Source: Gammaproteobacteria bacterium (lineage in GTDB: Bacteria > Pseudomonadota > Gammaproteobacteria > Natronospirales > JAJUFS01). From it: a stretch of DNA of 44,121 nucleotides. The notes under the pieces were generated by a model. That model made no database searches. It was not told the origin of the DNA and was given only the letters and a program-made list of their open reading frames with translations. The number at the start of each line of letters is the position of its first letter. Position 1 is the first letter of the stretch. Below, piece after piece: positions 4,928 through 44,121 of the stretch. Location of the stretch: positions 1 through 44,121 of the forward strand of contig JAWWBS010000013.1 in assembly GCA_033720895.1 (NCBI GenBank). Reading direction: 5' to 3'. Position numbers and translations under genes: made by a program.

Positions 4928-6411
4928 ACAAGACCACCAGGGAAAGCCTCCCCCGCCACTTGATTGTCGTCGAGAAGGCCAGTGACTGGAAAAGCGACTA
5001 TCCGGCCTATCCGGTGGTTACGGCACGCGAGTACCTGTCGAGCCCCGACTACGCCCGGCGAGGCGTCAAGGTGCTCAACCTGTGCCGCAGCTTCGGCTAC
5101 CAGACCACGGGCTACTACTGTTCCCTGCTCGCACAAGCGCGCCGGCATCGCATGCTGCCCTCGGTACGCACGCTCTCCGACCTTATGAGAAAGTCCCTGT
5201 ACCAGCTGGAAGCCGAGGACCTGCACGAGCGCCTGCAGAAGGCGATGAAGAAGGTCAGCGAGGACAAGCTGGAACTCTGGCTGTTCTTCGGCCGGCTGGA
5301 CGAGGGCGCACCGGCCCATCTTGCCGAACTGGCGCGGGAAATCTTCGAAGCCTTTTCCTGCCCCATCCTGCGCATCGAATTGCGCAAGGACGGCGGCTGG
5401 AAGATCTTCTCGGTGCGTGCCGGTTCATTGACGCAATTGAAAGCAGGACAGCGGACGCGCTTCATCAACGCACTGGAAAGCTTCATCAGCAAGCCATGGC
5501 GAAATCGAAAGTCGCGCGGCAGCTCTCGCTACGACCTGGCCGTGCTGTTCAACCCGGACGACCCGTTGCCACCATCGGACCTGCGTGCGCTGAAGCACCT
5601 TGAACGTGTCGGCAAGACCATGGGTTTCTACCTCGAGATCATCGGCAAGAAGGATTACGCCCGCATCGCCGAGTTCGATGGCCTGTTCATTCGCGAGACC
5701 ACGCGCATCAACCATCACACCTATCGCTTCGCCCGCAAGGCGGAATCCGAAGGCGTGGTGGTTATCGACGATCCCGAGTCCATCCTCCTCTGCACCAACA
5801 AGGTCTACCTCGCCGAACTGCTGCGGGCGAATCGGCTGCCGGCGCCACGCACGGTCGTGTTGCAGGAAGGCATGCTGCAGCAGGCCGAGGCACTGGGCTA
5901 CCCCGTCGTGTTGAAAATCCCCGATGGCTCTTTCTCGCGCGGTGTCTACAAGGCGGCCAACCGACGGGAGCTGGAAGAAATCACCACCAAGCTGTTCAGG
6001 GAATCGGACCTGATCCTGGCGCAGGAATACCTCTATACCGAGTATGACTGGCGCATCGGCGTGCTGAACAGGAAACCGCTGTTTGCCTGCCAGTATTTCA
6101 TGTCGAAGAACCACTGGCAGATTGTCGATCACAAGAAAGGTGGAAGCTTTTCCGAAGGTGGCTATCGCACCCTGCCGATCGAGGAAGCGCCGGAAGCGGT
6201 CGTCAAAACGGCAGTCGCTGCGGCCGGCCTGATCGGTGACAGCTTCTATGGTGTCGACATCAAGCAGAACGGCAACAAGGTGTATGTCATCGAGATCAAC
6301 GACAATCCTAATCTTGAAGCAGGCGTCGAGGACGCCCACCTGAAGGATGCGCTGTATCGTGCCATACTCGAGGAGTTCGCGCGCCGCATCGACGCGAAGC
6401 GCGCCAGCTGA
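4924..6411 (+). CDS. RimK-like ATP-grasp ligase with N-terminal RLAN domain
   Basis: The 495-residue protein starts at the ATG inside the ATGA overlap with the previous gene. The N-terminal part (HLIVVEKASDWKSDYPAYPV, ARRGVKVLNLCRSFGYQTTG) matches the RimK-like ATP-grasp N-terminal (RLAN) domain. The C-terminal half is an ATP-grasp fold: CTNKVYLAELLRANRLPAPRTVV, the ATP-binding VVLKIPDGSFSRGVYK, the hinge ILAQEYLYTEYDWRIGVLN, and the Mg-binding VYVIEINDNPNLEAGV. RimK family enzymes add amino acids to a carboxyl end through an acyl phosphate, for example glutamates on ribosomal protein S6. This longer form is distinct from RimK itself, and its acceptor is unknown. Coupling to an acetyltransferase-peptidase suggests one pathway that ligates amino acids and then processes or caps the product. 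Confidence 0.88.
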   Translation: MNKTTRESLPRHLIVVEKASDWKSDYPAYPVVTAREYLSSPDYARRGVKVLNLCRSFGYQTTGYYCSLLAQARRHRMLPSVRTLSDLMRKSLYQLEAEDLHERLQKAMKKVSEDKLELWLFFGRLDEGAPAHLAELAREIFEAFSCPILRIELRKDGGWKIFSVRAGSLTQLKAGQRTRFINALESFISKPWRNRKSRGSSRYDLAVLFNPDDPLPPSDLRALKHLERVGKTMGFYLEIIGKKDYARIAEFDGLFIRETTRINHHTYRFARKAESEGVVVIDDPESILLCTNKVYLAELLRANRLPAPRTVVLQEGMLQQAEALGYPVVLKIPDGSFSRGVYKAANRRELEEITTKLFRESDLILAQEYLYTEYDWRIGVLNRKPLFACQYFMSKNHWQIVDHKKGGSFSEGGYRTLPIEEAPEAVVKTAVAAAGLIGDSFYGVDIKQNGNKVYVIEINDNPNLEAGVEDAHLKDALYRAILEEFARRIDAKRAS

Positions 6412-6434
6412 CTCATAGCAGCAGAGGAAAGGCG

Positions 6435-7763
6435 ATGTTGACCAGCTTTGGCAAGAAGCTACAGGACCTGCTCTGGGATCGTCCCCTGGAGTCGCTGCCG
6501 GCCTGGGATCGCATCCTGACGAAAACCGGCAGGATCGCGTTCGTCGTGATCCGCGACCTGGGCGAGGGGCAGCTGAACCTGCGCGCCATGAGCCTGGTGT
6601 ACACCACGCTGCTGTCGCTGGTGCCCTTGCTGGCATTCAGTTTTTCCGTGCTCAAGGGCATCGGCCTGGCCGATCGCCTGCGGCCCTTGCTGTACGAGTC
6701 CCTGACAACGCTCGGACCGAAGGGCGAGGAACTCGGCGACCGCATCATGGGCTTCATCGACAACGTACGTGCCGACGTCCTCGGCTCGGTCGGCCTTGCG
6801 CTGTTGATCTACCTGATCATATCGCTGGTTCAGAAAGTCGAGGCGTCGTTCAACCATGTCTGGCGGGTACAGCAACCCCGCAGCTTCGCGCGCCGCTTCA
6901 GCGACTACCTGAGCGTCATCCTGATCGGCCCCCTGCTGATCGCACTGGCACTCGGTATCACCGGCTCTGCATCGAACGCGACAGTGGTACAGAAGATCCT
7001 GGCTATCGAGCCGTTCGGCACGTTGATTCTGAAGGCATCGACACTGCTGCCCTACCTGTTCGTGATCGCCGCGTTCACCTTTGTCTACCAGTTCATTCCG
7101 AACACCCGGGTCAAGCTGAAGCCCGCACTGATCGGCGCGATCGTTGGCGGCATCGTCTGGCAGACGGCAGGCTGGTTGTTCGCACGGTTCATTGCTTCCT
7201 CGACAAATTACATTGCGATCTACTCGAGCTTTGCGATCGTGCTGATCTTCATGATCTGGCTGTACCTGAGCTGGCTGATCCTGTTGTCCGGCGCGCAAGT
7301 GGCTTTCTATGCGCAGAACCCGCGTTTCATCATGAAGTCCCGCTCGCGGCTGATGCTGTCAAACGCGCTGCGCGAACAGCTGGCACTGGAAGTGATGTAC
7401 CAGGTCGGCAAGCGTTTCCATGATCGGAAGACGCTCCTGACCATGGACTCGCTGACGGAGCACCTGCGGATACCGGGCGATTCGATCGCCTCCATCACTT
7501 CGAGACTGGAACGTGCCGGCTTGCTGCTGGTGACGGATGCCGACGTGCCGGAATTCATCCCGGGAACCGACCTCGACGTCATCACTGTCATCGACATCCT
7601 GGCGGCGGTGCGACGCACCGATCCGGAACTGGATCATGACGATGGCAGCGTGCCGAAAAGCCAGGCTGTCGGAAAGGTTCTGGACGCACTGGAATCGGAT
7701 GCAATTGAATTGCTGAAGGGCAAGACCCTGCGAGATCTTGTCGATAGCGAAGAAAGGAACTGA
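6435..7763 (+). CDS. YihY/BrkB-family inner-membrane protein
   Basis: The 442-residue protein has the YihY/virulence factor BrkB family pattern (PF03631, once mislabelled ribonuclease BN): LRAMSLVYTTLLSLVPLLAF in the first membrane segment, VGLALLIYLIISLVQKVEASFNHVW in the second, RRFSDYLSVILIGPLL, YQFIPNTRVKLKPALIGAIV, and ASSTNYIAIYSSFAIVLIFMIWLYLSWLILLSGAQVAF near residue 290. About six membrane helices are evident. The last 150 residues are soluble and look like a winged-helix-type extension (LTEHLRIPGDSIASITSRLERAGLLL). An AGAGGAAAG ribosome site precedes the ATG. It follows the ATP-grasp gene by 23 bases and may share its transcript, but its role in that pathway, if any, is not evident. 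The family's function is poorly known. Confidence 0.9.
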   Translation: MLTSFGKKLQDLLWDRPLESLPAWDRILTKTGRIAFVVIRDLGEGQLNLRAMSLVYTTLLSLVPLLAFSFSVLKGIGLADRLRPLLYESLTTLGPKGEELGDRIMGFIDNVRADVLGSVGLALLIYLIISLVQKVEASFNHVWRVQQPRSFARRFSDYLSVILIGPLLIALALGITGSASNATVVQKILAIEPFGTLILKASTLLPYLFVIAAFTFVYQFIPNTRVKLKPALIGAIVGGIVWQTAGWLFARFIASSTNYIAIYSSFAIVLIFMIWLYLSWLILLSGAQVAFYAQNPRFIMKSRSRLMLSNALREQLALEVMYQVGKRFHDRKTLLTMDSLTEHLRIPGDSIASITSRLERAGLLLVTDADVPEFIPGTDLDVITVIDILAAVRRTDPELDHDDGSVPKSQAVGKVLDALESDAIELLKGKTLRDLVDSEERN

Positions 7764-35732: not shown

Positions 35733-37646
35733 TTACTTGACCACCCGGAGCGAGGCCGCCTCGGCTGCAGGATCCTTGAGACGGTCCATATTGCCCGGCG
35801 GCGTGTGGAAAGTGGGTACCAGGTTCCGCAGGGCCTCGAGGCACAGGACCGGGTCGTTCTCGGCCACCGCAGACTCCATGCGCTGCAGCGCGTCATCCAG
35901 TCGTTCGGTATCCAGCCCGGCGCTTTGCGCCAGCAGCAACTTGGGATGCGCCGTGCCAACCCGATCCTCGAAATCGTAGAACAGGTCCTCGTGCATCTTC
36001 TCGCCCGGTCGCAGGCCCGTGAAGGTGATGGGAATCTCGCTGCCCGGAATCTTGCCGTACAGACGGATCATGGTCTCGGCCATGTGCAGGATGGAGACAG
36101 GCTCGCCCATGTCGAGCACGAACACTTCGCCGCCCTTGCCGGTCACGCTGGCCTGCAGGATCAGCCCGGCCGCCTCGGCGATGGTCATGAAGTAACGCGT
36201 CACCCCCGGATCGGTCACGGTCACCGGTCCACCCGCCGCGATCTGGCTCTCGAACAGGGGCACGACCGAACCGCAGGAGCCGAGCACGTTGCCAAAGCGG
36301 GTAGTGATGAACTGCGTGCCGGCAGCATTGCCGAGACTCTGGCAATACAGCTCCGCCGCCCGCTTGGTGGCACCCATGATGCTGGACGGATTGACCACCT
36401 TGTCGGTGGAAATCAGGATGAATTTCTTCACGTTGTTGCGAATGGCGCAATCGGCCACCGTGCGGGTACCGAGCACGTTGTTCCGCACGCCTTCGCAGGG
36501 ATTCTCTTCCACGATGGGCACGTGCTTGTAGGCAGCCGCGTGGAACACCATCTCGATCGCATTGCGACGCATGCAGCTGTCGACACGAGTGGCATCGATC
36601 ACGCTGCCCAGCACGGCCTGGATATCGACATCCGGGAACTGCTTCTTCAATTCGATCTCGATGCGATAGAGATTGAACTCGGCATGATCGAAAACCACCA
36701 GGCGCTTCGGCTTGCGAGCTGCCAGCTGGCGACAGAGCTCCGAGCCGACGGAACCACCACCGCCGGTGACCATGATCGAATGGCCAGAGACGACACTGTC
36801 GATGTCGGTGTCGTCGAGATTGATCGATTCGCGACCGAGCAGGTCCTCGACGGTGATCGGCCTGAGCTTGCTGGAATATCCGTGCACCGCTTCCGGCTCG
36901 CTCAAGGACGGCAAGGTCGCCACGCGCACCTTGCTTTCGATGGACAGGCTGACTATCCGGTTCAACAGCTTGGCGTTCGCACTCGGCATGGCAATGAGCA
37001 CCATGTCCGCACGATGATTCTCGGTAATTGCGGGCAACTGGTCGATCCGGCCGCGAATGCGGACGCCGTGAAGCTCCTGGCCCTGCTTGCGGGGATCGTC
37101 ATCCAGGATTGCCACCGGTCGGAACGCACCGTTGCGGCTCAGTTCGCGGACCAGGATTTCGCCAGCGCGCCCGCCGCCGACGATGACCGCCCGGGGTCGT
37201 GAATCGAAATCCAGCCGCAGACCATGATCGACAATGGCGCGATAGAACACGCGCGCACCACTGACACCTGCCAGCAGGAAGATCGGGTACAGCACCAGCA
37301 CGGTGCGAGGGATCTCGGCCATGCGGTTGTAAAGGAACAGGGCCAGGGTGGTGACCAGCACACCGCAGGCCACGGCCGAAAAAATCCGCAGGAAATCCGG
37401 AATGGACGCAAAGCGCCAGACACCGCGATAGCAACCGAAGACCAGGAAGGCGCCAGCGTGTACCGGGACCGCGACTGTCAGGAAGGCCAGGAACCCAGAC
37501 ATGTTCTGCGCCGGCACTTCGCCGAAATTGAAACGCAGCCAGTACGCAAGCACGACCGCCACCGCTGTCCACAGCAGGTCATGAGCAAAGACCACGAATC
37601 TCTTGAAATGCAGCCCCACGCAACGGCACCTTTTCAGGACCCGCAT
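35733..37646 (-). CDS. WbpM/CapD-type nucleotide-sugar 4,6-dehydratase
   Basis: The 637-residue protein has about four membrane helices (20-130), a first Rossmann-like domain ([16 protein letters not shown] at 154-168) and a catalytic SDR domain with [10 protein letters not shown] at 294-303, ISTDK at 412-416 and [10 protein letters not shown] at 421-430. Met424 and Lys428 replace the usual Tyr-x-x-x-Lys, as in WbpM and other large dehydratases. The family converts UDP-GlcNAc (or UDP-GalNAc) to the 4-keto-6-deoxy sugar at the inner membrane, a step toward QuiNAc, FucNAc or bacillosamine units. It is the last gene of the glycan locus, 17 bases after the WbpL-like gene; this pairing is typical of O-antigen loci. 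The ribosome site is not clear. Confidence 0.92.
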
Positions 37647-37663: not shown

Positions 37664-38650
37664 CTAGACAGCCCCCCGGGGACAGCGACGGACGATGACC
37701 CCGTAAAGCACGACGTGCAATGCCACCTGCAGCCCGAGCACGAACCAGATCAGTTCATTTCGGACCCCGGAGGCCAGCCACAGGGCAAGCCCGGCATTCA
37801 CGCAAACAAGGGCAAATTCTAGCATAAGTACTTGATATACCGGCAATCCCGCCAGGCAGAGGCGCTGGTATGCATGCTCTCGATGCGCTTCCCAGATCCG
37901 CTCGCCCCGCCAGGCCCGGGCAACCAGGGTACAGCTGGCATCCACCAGGAAGGTCAGGAATGGCAGGATGACGAGGGCCGGATGGATTCCGGCCTCCAGC
38001 ACGGCATGAATGGCCAGTCCGGCCAGCAGGAAGCCGCTGGGTATCGAGCCGGCATCGCCCAGGAAAATCCGTGCTGGCGGCAGGTTCCAGGGCAGGAACC
38101 CCGCCATGGCAGCGGCCAGGATGGCCGCGACAAGCCAGCTGTTGCCGGCATCGCCTTGCCACAGCAAGACCGCCAGCGTGCTCGCGCCCACAACGCCCAT
38201 GGAGCCTGCCAGCCCGTCCATGCCATCCATGAAGTTGAAGAGATTGGTACACCAGGTCATCAGCAGGACCAGCAGGCCAAGCTGCCACCAGGCCAGCTCC
38301 ACCATCCACAGGAACAGCAGGGCAGCGCCGAGATGGACGAGCAGGCGCAACGGCGCCGAAAGATCGGCAATGTCATCCAGGACGGACAGGGACAACAGCA
38401 TCACCCAGCCGCCGATCAACATCAGCAAGCCGACGGGCGCCACGTCGACATGACCCAGGACGACGCCCGACAGCAAGGCAGCGATGCCGGCGCCGGCAAT
38501 GGCAAGACCGCCGGTGCGCGGCGTCGGCACCGAATGCAGGGAGCGATGATTCGGGACGTCGGTGATCGCCAGCCAGCCACGGGATAACACCCATGTCAGC
38601 AGGAAAGACAAGGCAAAGGCGCCAGCCAGCAACAGCATCGTGATGTCCAT
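37664..38650 (-). CDS. WbpL/WecA-type undecaprenyl-phosphate sugar-phosphate transferase
   Basis: The 328-residue integral membrane protein of the MraY/WecA superfamily has about ten helices. Conserved motifs are LSVLDDIADL with Asp92/Asp93, NLFNFMDGMDG at 136-146, FLGDAGSIPSGF with Asp199, and AHREHAYQRL at 255-264, the last typical of WbpL and TagO-like enzymes. It starts glycan assembly by moving a HexNAc-type 1-phosphate from UDP onto undecaprenyl phosphate. GGGGG lies before the ATG. It is 11 bases after the upstream glycosyltransferase gene and beside the WbpM-like dehydratase, which suggests its substrate is the 6-deoxy-HexNAc made there. Confidence 0.92.
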   Translation of the reverse strand: MDITMLLLAGAFALSFLLTWVLSRGWLAITDVPNHRSLHSVPTPRTGGLAIAGAGIAALLSGVVLGHVDVAPVGLLMLIGGWVMLLSLSVLDDIADLSAPLRLLVHLGAALLFLWMVELAWWQLGLLVLLMTWCTNLFNFMDGMDGLAGSMGVVGASTLAVLLWQGDAGNSWLVAAILAAAMAGFLPWNLPPARIFLGDAGSIPSGFLLAGLAIHAVLEAGIHPALVILPFLTFLVDASCTLVARAWRGERIWEAHREHAYQRLCLAGLPVYQVLMLEFALVCVNAGLALWLASGVRNELIWFVLGLQVALHVVLYGVIVRRCPRGAV

Positions 38651-38661
38651 CCAACCCCCGT

Positions 38662-39885
38662 TCAGGCTCGATCCGCCTTCTCATTGCGCAGGACACCGGC
38701 CAGGGCCTTTTCCAGCCGGGCGGCATGATGCTCGACCAGGAATTCGGCCTGCACGTACTCCCGACCTGCCCGGCCAAGCGCTGCCCGTTCCTCGCCAGAC
38801 CGGTCGCGCAGGTCGCGAATGGCTGCCGCGATGGCCTCTGGATGCTCGGACGGAACGCGCAAGCACGCGTCGCAATCCCGTTCCGGATGGTAGCGCGCTT
38901 CGGAACCGAACAGCACCGGCCGGGACATGGCCAGGTAGTCGAAAATCTTGTTGGCACTGACACCGTAGCGATAAACCGGCACGTCCTTGAACAGGATCAC
39001 AAAGGCGTCGGCCTCGGCCAGCACGTCATAGATCTCGGCCTTCGGCACCGCTGGCAGGAAGTGGACATTCTGCAGGCCCTCGTCAGTCGCGCGTCGCTGC
39101 AGGCGCTCTCGTTCCGGGCCCTGGCCGATGAGGCGGATTTCGATGTCATCGACACCCTGCTGCTGCAGGCAGGCCGCCGCGTCAAGCAAGGCATCGAGGT
39201 GATTGGCCAGGCCATGCGTACCGGAATACATCAGCACGAAGTTGCCATCACGAGGTGCCGGCTCGGCAAGCTCCGGCAGCCGGTACAGGGCGTTCGGGAC
39301 CCAGGCAAACGGGCATTCACGCCGGGCGACCGCGTTGATATGGCGCTCACTGCCCGGCAGGGCGGAAACGACCAGTTGCGCCCGACGATAAAGCAGCTTT
39401 TCCAGCAACCGGAAGGCCAGGATTCTCGGATCGAGGCGCGAGTACCCGCCGAGATCGATCAGGGAATCCGGCCACAGGTCCCTGATTTCCAGTACGAATG
39501 GCCGCTGCAAGCGGCGCGACAGCCACCAGGCACCCACTGCGGCAAACAATGACGGACTCGAGCCGATGACCACATCGGGCACCCGGTCCGGACGCAGGCG
39601 CGCCACCTGCCACATGAAATTCAGCATGTTGCGAATTCGTCCCAACGTGTTGCCACGGTAGGCCGGCGTCTTCAGCCACTGGAATTCGACACCCTCGACT
39701 CGCTCGCGACGACCGTCCTCGTCCGCTTGCAGGTGCGGATCGTGGCCAGCGAAATGATCATGGGATCCTGCCAGCAAGGTAACGGTGTTGCCGCGGGAAA
39801 CCAGCGCGCGCGAGTAATCAAAGGCACGTGACAACCCGGCCTGCTCTGGCTTCATGGCGTATTGATGGACATACAGGATATTCAC
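38662..39885 (-). CDS. Glycosyltransferase (GT4 type, WbuB-like)
   Basis: The 407-residue GT-B protein begins at GTG 39885 as VNILYVHQYAMKPEQAGLSR, with GGAG eight bases before it, immediately after the previous stop. The first domain has the long WbuB-like stretch PDVVIGSSPSLFAAVGAWWLSRRL and FVLEIRDLWPDSLIDLGGY; the second has MYSGTHGLANHLDALLDAA and SANKIFDYLAMSRPVLFGS, the donor-binding region of GT4 enzymes. WbuB-like enzymes transfer L-FucNAc or related sugars onto the lipid-linked acceptor. The exact sugar here is not known. It acts on the cytoplasmic side of the inner membrane. Confidence 0.9.
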   Translation of the reverse strand: MNILYVHQYAMKPEQAGLSRAFDYSRALVSRGNTVTLLAGSHDHFAGHDPHLQADEDGRRERVEGVEFQWLKTPAYRGNTLGRIRNMLNFMWQVARLRPDRVPDVVIGSSPSLFAAVGAWWLSRRLQRPFVLEIRDLWPDSLIDLGGYSRLDPRILAFRLLEKLLYRRAQLVVSALPGSERHINAVARRECPFAWVPNALYRLPELAEPAPRDGNFVLMYSGTHGLANHLDALLDAAACLQQQGVDDIEIRLIGQGPERERLQRRATDEGLQNVHFLPAVPKAEIYDVLAEADAFVILFKDVPVYRYGVSANKIFDYLAMSRPVLFGSEARYHPERDCDACLRVPSEHPEAIAAAIRDLRDRSGEERAALGRAGREYVQAEFLVEHHAARLEKALAGVLRNEKADRA

Positions 39886-39886
39886 G

Positions 39887-41029
39887 TCATCCGCTCCCGC
39901 CACCCGCGCCTTCGGCGAGCTCGTCGTACAAGGCCAGCAATGCGGACGCTTCCTGTTCCCAGCTGGCTTGTGTCTCGACATGTCGACGACCCGCCGCGCC
40001 CTGCTCGCGCAAGGCGCCGCGCTCGAGCCAGCGTGTCACCTCGGGCCAGCCCTGCGTGCCATCCTTGAGGTCGACCGCCAGGCCGGCGCCCGCAGCCTGC
40101 ACGATATCTCGCCACAAGGGGAACGCCGTGACAATGACCGGCAGGCCGGACGCCATGTATTCGAAGAGCTTGGTTGGCAAGGCACGTCGGTAATTCACCT
40201 TGTCATGCAGCAGGCACAGGCCGATACCGCCGCCGCGCAGCAGCTTCGCCACGCCCTCGCGATCCAGCTCGCCGTGGTAATCGCAAACGCCATCGCTTGT
40301 CGCTCTATCAAGCATCGCCTGGCAAGCAGGATCGACCCTGCCCGCCAGTTGCAGGCGCCGACCGGTGGCTTGCGCCAGGGAAAGCATCTCTTCTAGGCCC
40401 CGGTCGCGTGAAATGCGACCGACGTAGACAAGATCCTCGGGGACGGCAGTCGCGACCGAAAACTGCTCCAGGCGCGGGAAATTGCGGAGCGTCACGCATT
40501 GCACGGGAAGCGATGACAGGCGCTCATTGATGTCCGTCGTGGCCGTGATGACCGCATCGAAGCGCCGCATCAACAGGCGCGCCAGTGCATTGCTTGCGAA
40601 GGCCACGGGCCTGCGCAGGAATCCGGGGATCCATGGCTTGGCCAGCACCTGCAGGCCGATGTCCTCGTGCGCATCATAGATGTAACGGCAGCCCGGCAGG
40701 CGCGGCAACAGGCCGACCAGCAGCAGCTCGGGGTCGTGCAGGTGGACGATGTCGGGGCGGGTCTTGTTAATGATCTTCCTTGCCGCCAGCCACGACGTGA
40801 AGATTCGGCGCAGGCGACCCTGGCGAGCAGGAAAGGAGATTTCCTCCACGTCGACAGGTGCTGGAGAAGCGGTTTCTACCGGCCCGGGTCGACACCAGGT
40901 GACCGCATGGCCGTGCCCGGCAAGCGTCCGGATTTCCTTGTCGACAATACGAGGGTCCCGCGAAGGGTGGACACTCGAGAGAACAAGCACCTCGAGGCTC
41001 TTTGCAGCTTCAATCGATTTCGAGATCAT
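39887..41029 (-). CDS. Glycosyltransferase (GT4 type)
   Basis: A 380-residue GT-B protein from ATG 41029. It has VLVLSSVHPSRDPRIVDKEIRTL at the start, RPDIVHLHDPELLLVGLLPR, IYDAHEDIGLQV, LVYVGRISRDRGLEEMLSLA and ALPTKLFEYMASGLPVIVTA, the hallmarks of group 1 (GT4) enzymes. It probably adds one sugar of the repeat unit. The start is ambiguous: ATG 41029 overlaps the end of the ABC-like gene by 20 bases, ATG 41044 is five codons earlier, and neither has a strong ribosome site. The frame stays open further upstream inside the ABC-like gene, but without GT homology. Confidence 0.88.
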   Translation of the reverse strand: MISKSIEAAKSLEVLVLSSVHPSRDPRIVDKEIRTLAGHGHAVTWCRPGPVETASPAPVDVEEISFPARQGRLRRIFTSWLAARKIINKTRPDIVHLHDPELLLVGLLPRLPGCRYIYDAHEDIGLQVLAKPWIPGFLRRPVAFASNALARLLMRRFDAVITATTDINERLSSLPVQCVTLRNFPRLEQFSVATAVPEDLVYVGRISRDRGLEEMLSLAQATGRRLQLAGRVDPACQAMLDRATSDGVCDYHGELDREGVAKLLRGGGIGLCLLHDKVNYRRALPTKLFEYMASGLPVIVTAFPLWRDIVQAAGAGLAVDLKDGTQGWPEVTRWLERGALREQGAAGRRHVETQASWEQEASALLALYDELAEGAGGGSG

Positions 41030-42704
41030 CTTCGATATCGTCATCAGGCTCGGATTGCGAAGCTGCAGCATCCTGGCGCGATTGCTCCGACACCAGGTCG
41101 AGATCGTCATGCAACAGCTGGCCATCTTCATCAAGGGCCAGGAGGCGGACGCTTTCCAGCGAGCGATACTCATCATGGTAATGACCGGCGAGCACCAGCA
41201 AGCGACCGGCAAACTGCCCGTCACGTAGTTGCTTGAGAATGCCCGGATTGCGCAACCAGCGCCTGAATACCGAGTCGTCGATCACAATGTGCGAATCGGC
41301 GGGACCGGCGAGTGCCACCAGATACAGGACTTCTGCCTTGCGCTTGGCCGGAAGTCTTCGCCATTCGCCCAGCGACAATGGCCGGTCTGCGTTCTCGGCC
41401 AGCCACGACTTCGTCGCGCTGGCATCGAAACCAGGCTCTTGCTCGTTGCGATTCGCCTCCTTGAGGCTCGGGAAGGCATGGCTGATCGACTTGCCATCCG
41501 GATAGCCAGACATCATCAGCGGCAGGATATTGTTCGCCGTCACTCCATCCAGCGCGGCAACAAGAGCCTCTGCGAGCCCCCGTGACCTCGGCGCATTGCC
41601 CGTCATGATCACGGGAATCGAATCCGACGACACCGCATTGCTTAACCGGCTGCGGACGTGACCCTGTGGCAATTTCAGTTTTTCGAAAAGGGCAAGGACC
41701 ATCGCCACCTTCCGATAGAAACGATTGAAATTCGTCACGCCGCCAAACAGTCCCTTGAGACCCATGAACACCCTGTTGAGCACCAGGACATAGAGGACCA
41801 GATAGGACCACTGCGCAGACTGACCCTGCGGCAGCATGGCAAAGGAGCCCAGCACGAGCGCCATGGCAGCAATGAACGTCAGCGTGCTGAAGAACTGGCT
41901 GACATAAAGGTATTTGAGACTCTTTCTCCGCGCCTGGAAATTCATGCTGACAGCAGGCTCGCGGATGACCTCGCTTGAATCGACCGACGAGCTGACCATG
42001 CCGGTCATCTTTTCTTCGATGTATCCCCGAATACGACGCGATGTCTCGGCCCGGCTGTCATCCATCGCCCGGTTCCAGTTGGCGGCCTTGATGCTCAGTC
42101 GTCGCTGCGCGGTCAACGAAGAAACGGCCGCCAGCGCCACCAGCAGCGTGAGGACCGGCTTCAGGTAGAAAAGGAATACCAGGCCGATCAATACCGTCAG
42201 CACCTGCGGGAACATCTTGAGGATGATGCGGAGCACGCGGTTCGTTGATGCGCCATGACCGATCGCGGCACTGAAAATGACCTGCTGCGCATTCTTGTTC
42301 TCGGCATCGCCGAGCTTCCTGATCGCGGTGAAATTCCTGTCGGCATCCAGGCGATCGAGAATACGGCGCACCACTTCCACCTGGTAGGAAGACGAAATTC
42401 GCAGGATCAGCAGCCCCGAGGCGAGCTGGGAGCCTGCCTGCAACAACAGCAATCCGACGAATACCGAGCCGACCAGCCAGATCGTCCCGGCCTCGCGGGG
42501 ATCGAGCGACCACTCCTTGAATTGAATGAGCTCGCCGGACTCGAAGTACATGACAAATCCGGCGACCAGGCCGATACCGAGGAACTGCAGGACAACCGCG
42601 AACACGCTCGATGCCAGCGCACCGGCTGTCAGCCAGGGCACACGCCCCAGCGCATCAGCCAGGAAGCTAGCCAGCGTAGAGAGGTATTTCGCAAAATTCC
42701 TCAC
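41010..42704 (-). CDS. ABC-exporter-like membrane protein with decayed nucleotide-binding domain
   Basis: A 564-residue protein from GTG 42704, whose start overlaps the previous stop as GTGA. Residues 25-345 resemble the six-helix membrane domain of type IV ABC exporters (helices near 28-52, 74-102, 160-181, 183-200, 268-290, 298-318). Residues 361-540 follow the order of an ABC ATPase but without its key residues: VIMTGNAPRSRG at 365-376 where GxxGxGKS/T should be, PLSLGEWRR at 442-450 for the LSGGQ signature, HIVIDDSVF at 472-480 for Walker B (Asp-Asp instead of Asp-Glu), and LVLAGHYHDEY at 503-513 for the His switch. The tail is very acidic. ATP hydrolysis seems unlikely. It could be a non-catalytic partner, scaffold or regulator in glycan export or modification. 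Confidence 0.75.
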   Translation of the reverse strand: MRNFAKYLSTLASFLADALGRVPWLTAGALASSVFAVVLQFLGIGLVAGFVMYFESGELIQFKEWSLDPREAGTIWLVGSVFVGLLLLQAGSQLASGLLILRISSSYQVEVVRRILDRLDADRNFTAIRKLGDAENKNAQQVIFSAAIGHGASTNRVLRIILKMFPQVLTVLIGLVFLFYLKPVLTLLVALAAVSSLTAQRRLSIKAANWNRAMDDSRAETSRRIRGYIEEKMTGMVSSSVDSSEVIREPAVSMNFQARRKSLKYLYVSQFFSTLTFIAAMALVLGSFAMLPQGQSAQWSYLVLYVLVLNRVFMGLKGLFGGVTNFNRFYRKVAMVLALFEKLKLPQGHVRSRLSNAVSSDSIPVIMTGNAPRSRGLAEALVAALDGVTANNILPLMMSGYPDGKSISHAFPSLKEANRNEQEPGFDASATKSWLAENADRPLSLGEWRRLPAKRKAEVLYLVALAGPADSHIVIDDSVFRRWLRNPGILKQLRDGQFAGRLLVLAGHYHDEYRSLESVRLLALDEDGQLLHDDLDLVSEQSRQDAAASQSEPDDDIEDDLEID

Positions 42705-43570
42705 TTCCCGCCCTTCGTCAGCTTCGCGAGCATTGCCCTGAAGAGCCTCCTGAGCGGCAATACCGGCGAAGTCGTCTTGGCGTCGGAGGCTACGAGATAG
42801 GTCGGCTCGAAAGCAAAGCGCTTCTTCCATCGGCGCAAGCCGTCGCCACCCTGGTAATAACCTGCATACATCAAGGACTTGAAGCCTTCACCACAGGCAT
42901 TGCCCGCCTCGAGCAACCACTCCATGACACCGAGGTGAAGTCTGTTTACAACGCCATCCTTCAGGTAATCGCCATGGCCGATAATCATGCTGTACAGGCC
43001 GTAATCACCCAGCCTGCGCAAGTCGATGTACGCCAGGAGACGTTCGTTGGTAACAACGTCACCCTGCTTGTAGCCGTCGACTTTCTCGAAGATTCCCCAC
43101 CAGAGGTCGTAATGGACCGGGCAGGAGGGCATCTCTGTTTCGAAATGCTTCGAAGGAGCGCCGCCCATCTCGTCGATCGAACGGCGATAGGATGCTTTCA
43201 TCTTCCCACCGCTCCGGACTTCCTTCGATGTGTTGATTTCGACGATGTCTGGAATGTGCATGCGGCGGTCAAAAGGCTTCACATAATATCCAGCCTTGTC
43301 TGCCTTCTTGGCATCCCGAATCGCATTGCCCTTCGATATTTTCCGGCACGCCTTTTCATAATCGTCGAAACTCTCGAAACCGAGATCGAGGCAAGCGGTA
43401 ATGACCTGACCTTCGATGACATCGCCGATACCGATGAACTTTCCGCCCAGCCGATCAGCATTGCGCTCAACCATCGATCTACAGCGCGCCGAACCTGTGC
43501 ACTTCGGATGCCCGAGACCGTAGTCGATATGCTGAATCCTTACTTCTTCATTTTCGTTCATTTTTGGCAT
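42701..43570 (-). CDS. GNAT-like protein of unknown function in glycan locus
   Basis: A 289-residue soluble protein that I do not assign to a named family. Residues 175-258 (NERLLAYIDLRRLGDYGLYS, MIIGHGDYLKDGVVNRLHLG, LMYAGYYQGGDGLRRWKKRFAF) look like a GNAT/FemAB-type acyltransferase core. The N-terminal part has HPKCTGSARCRSM with two Cys near residues 24 and 30, and DIVEINTSKEVRSGGKM in the middle. The end is basic (LRRLFRAMLAKLTKGGK) and could touch the membrane. The start is either ATG 43570, within the end of the sulfotransferase gene, or ATG 43561; its stop overlaps the ABC-like GTG. Acylation of a sugar is a reasonable guess from context only. Confidence 0.75.
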   Translation of the reverse strand: MPKMNENEEVRIQHIDYGLGHPKCTGSARCRSMVERNADRLGGKFIGIGDVIEGQVITACLDLGFESFDDYEKACRKISKGNAIRDAKKADKAGYYVKPFDRRMHIPDIVEINTSKEVRSGGKMKASYRRSIDEMGGAPSKHFETEMPSCPVHYDLWWGIFEKVDGYKQGDVVTNERLLAYIDLRRLGDYGLYSMIIGHGDYLKDGVVNRLHLGVMEWLLEAGNACGEGFKSLMYAGYYQGGDGLRRWKKRFAFEPTYLVASDAKTTSPVLPLRRLFRAMLAKLTKGGK

Positions 43571-44121
43571 CCGTATTCATATACCCGAGCGAAACAAGAC
43601 TGGCACCCGCCACCTTCTCGAAAGCTTCAATCTGCTCTGGCTTGAGATCGCGCCGATATCGTCCCAACGCAGAATCGTTAATCGGGCGGGCGACCTGGTC
43701 CCTGCTGGGGTGTCTTACCTTGGTCTCGTACAGGGAATGGCCCTGCTCCGAGTGAGCAAGGACTGCCGGATCCCAGTCCACGCCGAGAAAGTCGAGCAAG
43801 CGCCTAATCGTTTCTTCGGGCTTCATGACGATGTCTTCATAGCGCACTTCGGTATAACGTACCGAACCGCTCGTTGCTCTTGCGCCGTCGATTACGGAGC
43901 ACCAGCCGGCAGCTGCTCGCGAAATGTCGCCATAGCCCCAGCTGCCATGCTCGGAAATCTGCGAGGCTGCAACATCCCGACCGTCCCTGATGATGTGGAT
44001 ATAGGTGGCGTCCGGGAACGTCTCTGCATACTTCTCGAGATTCTTGATCTCGCGCATGATCTTGAAGCCCCAGCGGGACTTGCCGTCCTTTTTCGCATTT
44101 CGCTCGCCGAGCTCGCGCACA
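43548..44121 (-). CDS. Sulfotransferase family protein, C-terminal part
   Basis: The 191 visible residues run off the right edge, so the N-terminus with the 5'-phosphosulfate loop is missing. The 3'-phosphate-binding segment of PAPS sulfotransferases is clear: ATYIHIIRDGRDVAASQ, followed by YTEVRYEDIVMKPEETIRRLLDFLGVDWD, and a late AGASLVSLGY. In this family (PF13469/PF00685) sulfate is moved from PAPS to a sugar, lipid or protein hydroxyl. The position at the head of a glycan operon suggests a sugar or lipid-linked sugar acceptor. The GNAT-like gene begins inside its last codons. Confidence 0.85.
   Translation of the reverse strand, partial: VRELGERNAKKDGKSRWGFKIMREIKNLEKYAETFPDATYIHIIRDGRDVAASQISEHGSWGYGDISRAAAGWCSVIDGARATSGSVRYTEVRYEDIVMKPEETIRRLLDFLGVDWDPAVLAHSEQGHSLYETKVRHPSRDQVARPINDSALGRYRRDLKPEQIEAFEKVAGASLVSLGYMNTDAKNERK

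Follow-up and report, generated by a model that had tools for sequence, protein, structure and literature searches.

The window, by which we mean the whole stretch of 44,121 nucleotides analyzed here, belongs to a draft genome of 124 contigs. It carries, in this order, genes for a sulfotransferase, a GNAT-like protein, a pseudo-ABC exporter, two glycosyltransferases, a Glycos_transf_4 enzyme and a Polysacc_synt_2 enzyme (Table 1), past which lie housekeeping genes (MiaB-like, phoH, ybeY, corC and lnt). Because the contig ends inside the sulfotransferase gene, the window lacks the upstream half of this glycan locus. A contig carrying a Wzm/Wzt-like pair (C69) was considered as the continuation of the locus and dropped, since the genes seen there are unlike it.

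Table 1. Coordinates of the pseudo-ABC exporter, its parts and its neighbors in the window
Feature	Positions	Strand	Remarks
Polysacc_synt_2, WbpM/CapD-type dehydratase/epimerase	35733..37646	-	PF02719 2.6e-113
Glycos_transf_4, WecA/WbpL-type initiating transferase	37664..38650	-	PF00953 4.3e-27
Glycosyltransferase	38662..39876	-	Pfam
Glycosyltransferase	39887..41044	-	Pfam GT domains; start picked by eye, overlaps pseudo-ABC tail
Pseudo-ABC exporter gene	41010..42704	-	564 aa, GTG start
Acidic C-terminal tail	41013..41072	-	D/E at 10 of the last 20 residues; DDDIEDDLEID
Degenerate nucleotide-binding domain, about residues 361-531	41112..41624	-	hhalign and low-confidence AF2
H-loop position GHYHDEY, residues 507-513	41166..41186	-	H508 at switch position
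Walker B remnant IVIDD, residues 473-477	41274..41288	-	catalytic Glu replaced by Asp
LSGGQ signature position, LPAKRK, residues 451-456	41337..41354	-	hhalign
Rewritten P-loop TGNAPRSRGL, residues 368-377	41574..41603	-	no Gly-Lys-Ser/Thr
Six-helix exporter-type transmembrane domain, residues 1-342	41679..42704	-	AF2, NCBIfam, hhalign
GNAT-like acyltransferase-type protein, 289 aa	42701..43570	-	overlaps both neighbors
Sulfotransferase	43548..44121	-	Sulfotransfer_3 1.6e-19; N-terminus cut off at contig end

The pseudo-ABC reading frame is intact from the GTG at 42704 to the stop at 41012-41010. The GNAT-like gene ends with a TGA that runs into this GTG, giving a four-base overlap (GTGA, 42704-42701). 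The downstream glycosyltransferase could start at the ATG at 41044, within the acidic tail, so that coupling is possible at both ends; several of the relatives described below also have strongly acidic tails. The GNAT-like protein had no Pfam match at E 10 and shares 47% identity with its homolog at a related locus, L022. A more distant homolog (L020) matches LPG_synthase_C at 1.3e-4 and GNAT at 0.006, which only weakly suggests a GNAT or LPG-synthase fold.

The six-helix exporter fold proposed for the membrane part in an earlier note, which was made from the sequence alone, agrees with the structure prediction, the profile comparisons and the structural search. AF2, run with a 12-row alignment, predicts helices at residues 23-56, 72-121, 139-181, 183-233, 250-289 and 299-342, with pLDDT mostly 75-95. 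The family profile of the transmembrane domain (TMD) aligns with the TMDs of real exporters at E 5.7e-14 (hhalign), and a profile-profile alignment of the pseudo-ABC with five real exporters reaches E 7.9e-13 over 473 columns. When the model was compared with the PDB by Foldseek, the top 50 matches were all ABC exporters (best E 3.3e-9, all <1e-6), including TmrAB, TM287/288 and MsbA; the alignments cover approximately the full length, with modest TM-scores of 0.36-0.55. No Pfam or NCBIfam model reached its cutoff for the window protein, with nothing from Pfam and weak NCBIfam matches to exporter membrane domains only (MsbA, 3.4e-4); a relative, L027, matches PF00664 at 2.9e-5, likewise under its cutoff, and a sequence search of the PDB with the window protein returned nothing useful. 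Conservation within the helices is low and the loop regions vary within the family. The only conserved charged positions of the membrane part in the family alignment are D17, R114, D/E215 and R328; the helices in this alignment show no conserved acidic or glutamate ladder of the kind that could account for another energy source.

The C-terminal domain (C-domain) had been described in the earlier note as retaining only the layout of a nucleotide-binding domain (NBD), and profile comparison bears this out. The eleven C-domains of the family align with real NBDs at E 8.4e-7 with a score of 49.3, against a highest score of 19.2 in 50 column shuffles; with four family C-domains, the value was E 4.8e-6. 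At the level of sequence profiles, this confirms that the C-domain descends from the NBD of an ABC ATPase. AF2 left the C-domain unfolded when given 5 alignment rows; 12 rows improved it, with pLDDT still about 30-60. At this low confidence, the predicted elements follow the order of an NBD: a P-loop strand (365-368), a helix (372-385), a post-signature helix (453-466), a Walker B strand (473-476) and an H-loop strand (502-510).

The catalytic motifs of this domain are lost or altered. G-x4-G-K-S/T is absent throughout the window protein by motif scan, and the P-loop without Gly-Lys-Ser/Thr reported earlier (TGNAPRSRG) is present at residues 368-376. Reading the family alignment by eye shows no Lys at the Walker A Lys position in any of the 11 members with a C-domain; this column holds Arg in eight, His in L047 and Pro in L002, and the window protein has Ser there with Arg on either side. 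The second P-loop position is often Pro. Given Arg in the Lys column of 8/11 members, the P-loop appears to have been rewritten and not merely eroded. Walker B does end in Asp-Asp as previously read, and the catalytic Glu is retained in L027 only. The earlier note had taken LSLGEW (443-448) as the signature; the profile alignment places the signature eight residues downstream, at LPAKRK, and LSLGEW is consequently a chance resemblance slightly upstream. Of the suggested His-switch remnant, the position stands, with H508 of GHYHDEY at the H-loop; its conservation does not, since by eye only the window protein and L045 (2/11) have His there, and H508 is accordingly not regarded as a retained functional switch. 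From these motifs, we strongly infer that the family has lost ATPase activity.

The family comprises 12 members, namely the window protein and eleven relatives (L002, L003, L022, L027 and L043-L049), which occur in the window's order (two; 19 genomes searched), in another order of the same class (one; 369 genomes searched) and in Planctomycetota. The planctomycete locus L027 was reached via its GNAT-like partner, and its class yielded matches in 7 of 198 genomes, L027's own included; the planctomycete origin of L027 rests on the label of its metagenome-assembled genome (MAG) together with the relatives found in further genomes of the same class. A sample of 399 Planctomycetota genomes searched at a stricter limit gave no further relatives, its one extra match being a normal exporter, and none were found among genome contigs (protein query), viral contigs (alignment query) or plasmids. 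Profile matches that possess Walker A (L011-L015 and L033) are ordinary exporters and were retained as controls only. A short frame at L027:3795-4157 also matches the pseudo-ABC profile, at 1.5e-5, and is possibly a remnant or a chance match.

The C-domain is present in 11 of the 12 members, and Walker A is absent from all 11. The remaining member, L022, is TMD-only: its gene stops after the membrane part, and no convincing NBD remnant was found in the 550 bases that follow. Within the family, identity is 18% in the C-domain and 20% in the membrane part, the reverse of working exporters, in which the C-domain (49%) exceeds the membrane part (31%). In a tree of the membrane part, the 12 members form one clade, split from seven working exporters by a 100/100 branch, and the window protein pairs with L022 (100/99) near the planctomycete members; because of long branches and a small outgroup, the exact placement and the direction of any transfer are unsure. 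A homolog with an intact Walker A, which the earlier note had named as a finding that would refute it, does not occur among the ten relatives that have a C-domain; this outcome favors the note and speaks against decay in this strain only. The existence of relatives in two phyla without the same ATPase parts points to a preserved engine-less family and not to one broken gene, and we therefore rejected strain-specific decay and a random pseudogene as explanations.

The gene trio of the window, sulfotransferase, GNAT-like protein and pseudo-ABC, recurs at L022, in a genome from another order of the class, and at the planctomycete locus L027. The L022 locus contains sulfotransferases, the GNAT-like gene, the TMD-only member, a methyltransferase and two glycosyltransferases, and its housekeeping block (MiaB-like, phoH, corC) matches that of the window. 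In L027, Sulfotransfer_3 and GNAT-like parts are joined in one 623-residue protein (5283-7154) encoded directly before the pseudo-ABC, a fusion that suggests that the two enzymes act together. Sulfotransferase genes also lie near the pseudo-ABC in L043 and L045, and in L044 one lies 30 bases downstream of it, followed by glycosyltransferases and a Bac_transf enzyme. Other loci have other partners: an AsnB-like amidotransferase gene is directly upstream in L048 (6294-8381), where it overlaps the pseudo-ABC by four bases, and in L049 (6084-8171); Stealth and LicD genes come after L002; and PEP-mutase and related phosphonate genes lie near L002 and L003 (the latter read by eye). The examined portion of L046 held no surface-polymer or sulfation setting. 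The setting that recurs is the assembly of surface polymers; its most frequent theme is sulfation, which is not universal, with the caveat that planctomycetes may be rich in sulfotransferases anyway.

By motif scan, no examined locus contains a canonical ABC gene. The window genome encodes one canonical PF00664 exporter, which is MsbA-like, and ABC2_membrane (Wzm-like) genes elsewhere. A Wzx-type flippase (PF01943) was not detected in this draft genome at E 1e-3 with the one Pfam model, nor within 30 kb of the pseudo-ABC in six planctomycete genomes; Wzx proteins are diverse, and a single Pfam model cannot exclude them. In G172, the genome of the TMD-only member, the contig with this member also carries a PF01943 flippase at a distance of ~28 kb, which may take care of translocation there. 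This distribution fits a translocator role without proving it.

The ancestry, the family-wide loss of ATPase motifs and the genomic context are results of computation. The interpretation in the earlier note is partly supported: its description of an exporter homolog whose ATPase has decayed, encoded within a glycan locus, is borne out, while its suggestion that the protein binds lipid-linked sugars or acts as a scaffold stays a hypothesis. We consider it somewhat short of an even chance (roughly 0.45) that the pseudo-ABC is an ATP-independent handler, either translocator or docking platform, of lipid-linked and often sulfated glycans. The family would then be a single lineage out of MsbA-type (type IV) ABC exporters that gave up ATP hydrolysis, and its members would probably be inner-membrane homodimers with the exporter fold and most likely handle a lipid-linked sugar intermediate in surface-glycan loci. 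This intermediate might pass the membrane through the pseudo-ABC without ATP, or might be held by it within reach of the sulfotransferase and the GNAT-like transferase. The former ATPase domain may have become a cytosolic dimerization or docking module, with a rewritten loop that often contains Arg and, usually, an acidic tail. A more specific proposal, that a hitherto undescribed family with the exporter fold moves lipid-linked, often sulfated glycan intermediates without an ATPase and that the former ATP site has been rebuilt around the conserved Arg and binds a phosphorylated donor, PAPS or the partner enzyme, seems to us doubtful. The likeness to MsbA and PglK lies in the six-helix fold, the half-transporter layout, the NBD-derived C-terminal domain and the association with export of lipids or lipid-linked glycans; unlike them, the family lacks Walker A, the signature and the catalytic Glu (apart from L027), and its C-domain is conserved no better than its membrane part.

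A pure scaffold or regulator for glycan-modifying enzymes, moving nothing, is on balance unlikely, although it accounts for the overlapping genes, the sulfotransferase-GNAT fusion adjoining the pseudo-ABC, the poorly conserved helices, the acidic tail, which suits protein contacts, and the presence of Wzx in the G172 locus. The full six-helix exporter fold has nonetheless been kept, which exceeds the needs of a simple anchor, and the partner enzymes vary by locus (AsnB-like, phosphonate/Stealth, methyltransferase). A scaffold dedicated to a single enzyme pair is disfavored by the swapping of partners, and a highly specific transporter by the low conservation of the helices; on these two grounds together, the ATP-independent handler was ranked ahead of the pure scaffold.

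We regard as improbable that the protein is the inactive partner in a heterodimeric exporter whose canonical half, encoded elsewhere (for example, MsbA), hydrolyzes ATP. Heterodimers with a single degenerate site are common among exporters, and a Walker A Lys-to-Arg change is known from ABCG5/G8 (PMC7756269). The best Foldseek matches include heterodimers of this type, and the MsbA-like exporter of the window genome would be at hand. However, TM287/288, TmrAB and ABCG5/G8, which share the erosion of ATPase motifs, have a canonical partner half and bind ATP at a degenerate site that retains most of its P-loop, whereas here the whole loop appears to be gone, no partner gene is encoded in any examined locus and L022 is entirely without an NBD. 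We also know of no precedent for coupling to the essential MsbA.

Still less probable is a secondary transporter powered by protons, which would parallel SbmA/BacA independently. SbmA arose from a type IV ABC exporter through loss of the NBD (PMC13316013), and the pseudo-ABC family, with its TMD-only member L022, seems to share both this descent and the absence of an ATPase. The family differs, however, in retaining the NBD-derived domain in 11/12 members, in giving no hit to the SbmA model of Pfam at E 10 and in its glycan loci as opposed to peptide uptake; the lack of conserved glutamates in the helices is the reason for rating an SbmA-type mechanism low. Independent pseudogenes in decay, which would account for very divergent C-domains and the outright loss of one, are very unlikely, given that the frames are open in all 12 members, which come from two phyla, and that the family has non-ABC features of its own that are conserved (P-loop Arg, R328 and W299), recurring operon partners and a single clade.

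The ATPase is what defines an ABC exporter. A clade across two phyla that has retained the exporter fold and an outline of the ATPase, yet no complete ATP site, would be the second instance, separate from SbmA, of exporters giving up ATP, with the relic ATPase domain still attached and one member already without it; no description of such an engine-less exporter family was found in the open-licence literature. It would also give a handle on the assembly and movement of sulfated and phosphonate-bearing bacterial glycans, for which the translocation step is often unassigned. Pseudo-ABC relatives at L008:391-11818 and L009:1-1926 lie beside genes for a PEP-mutase/cytidylyltransferase fusion and of the phosphonopyruvate-decarboxylase type, L008 also having Stealth and LicD genes, a combination that makes a phosphonate-decorated glycan likely.
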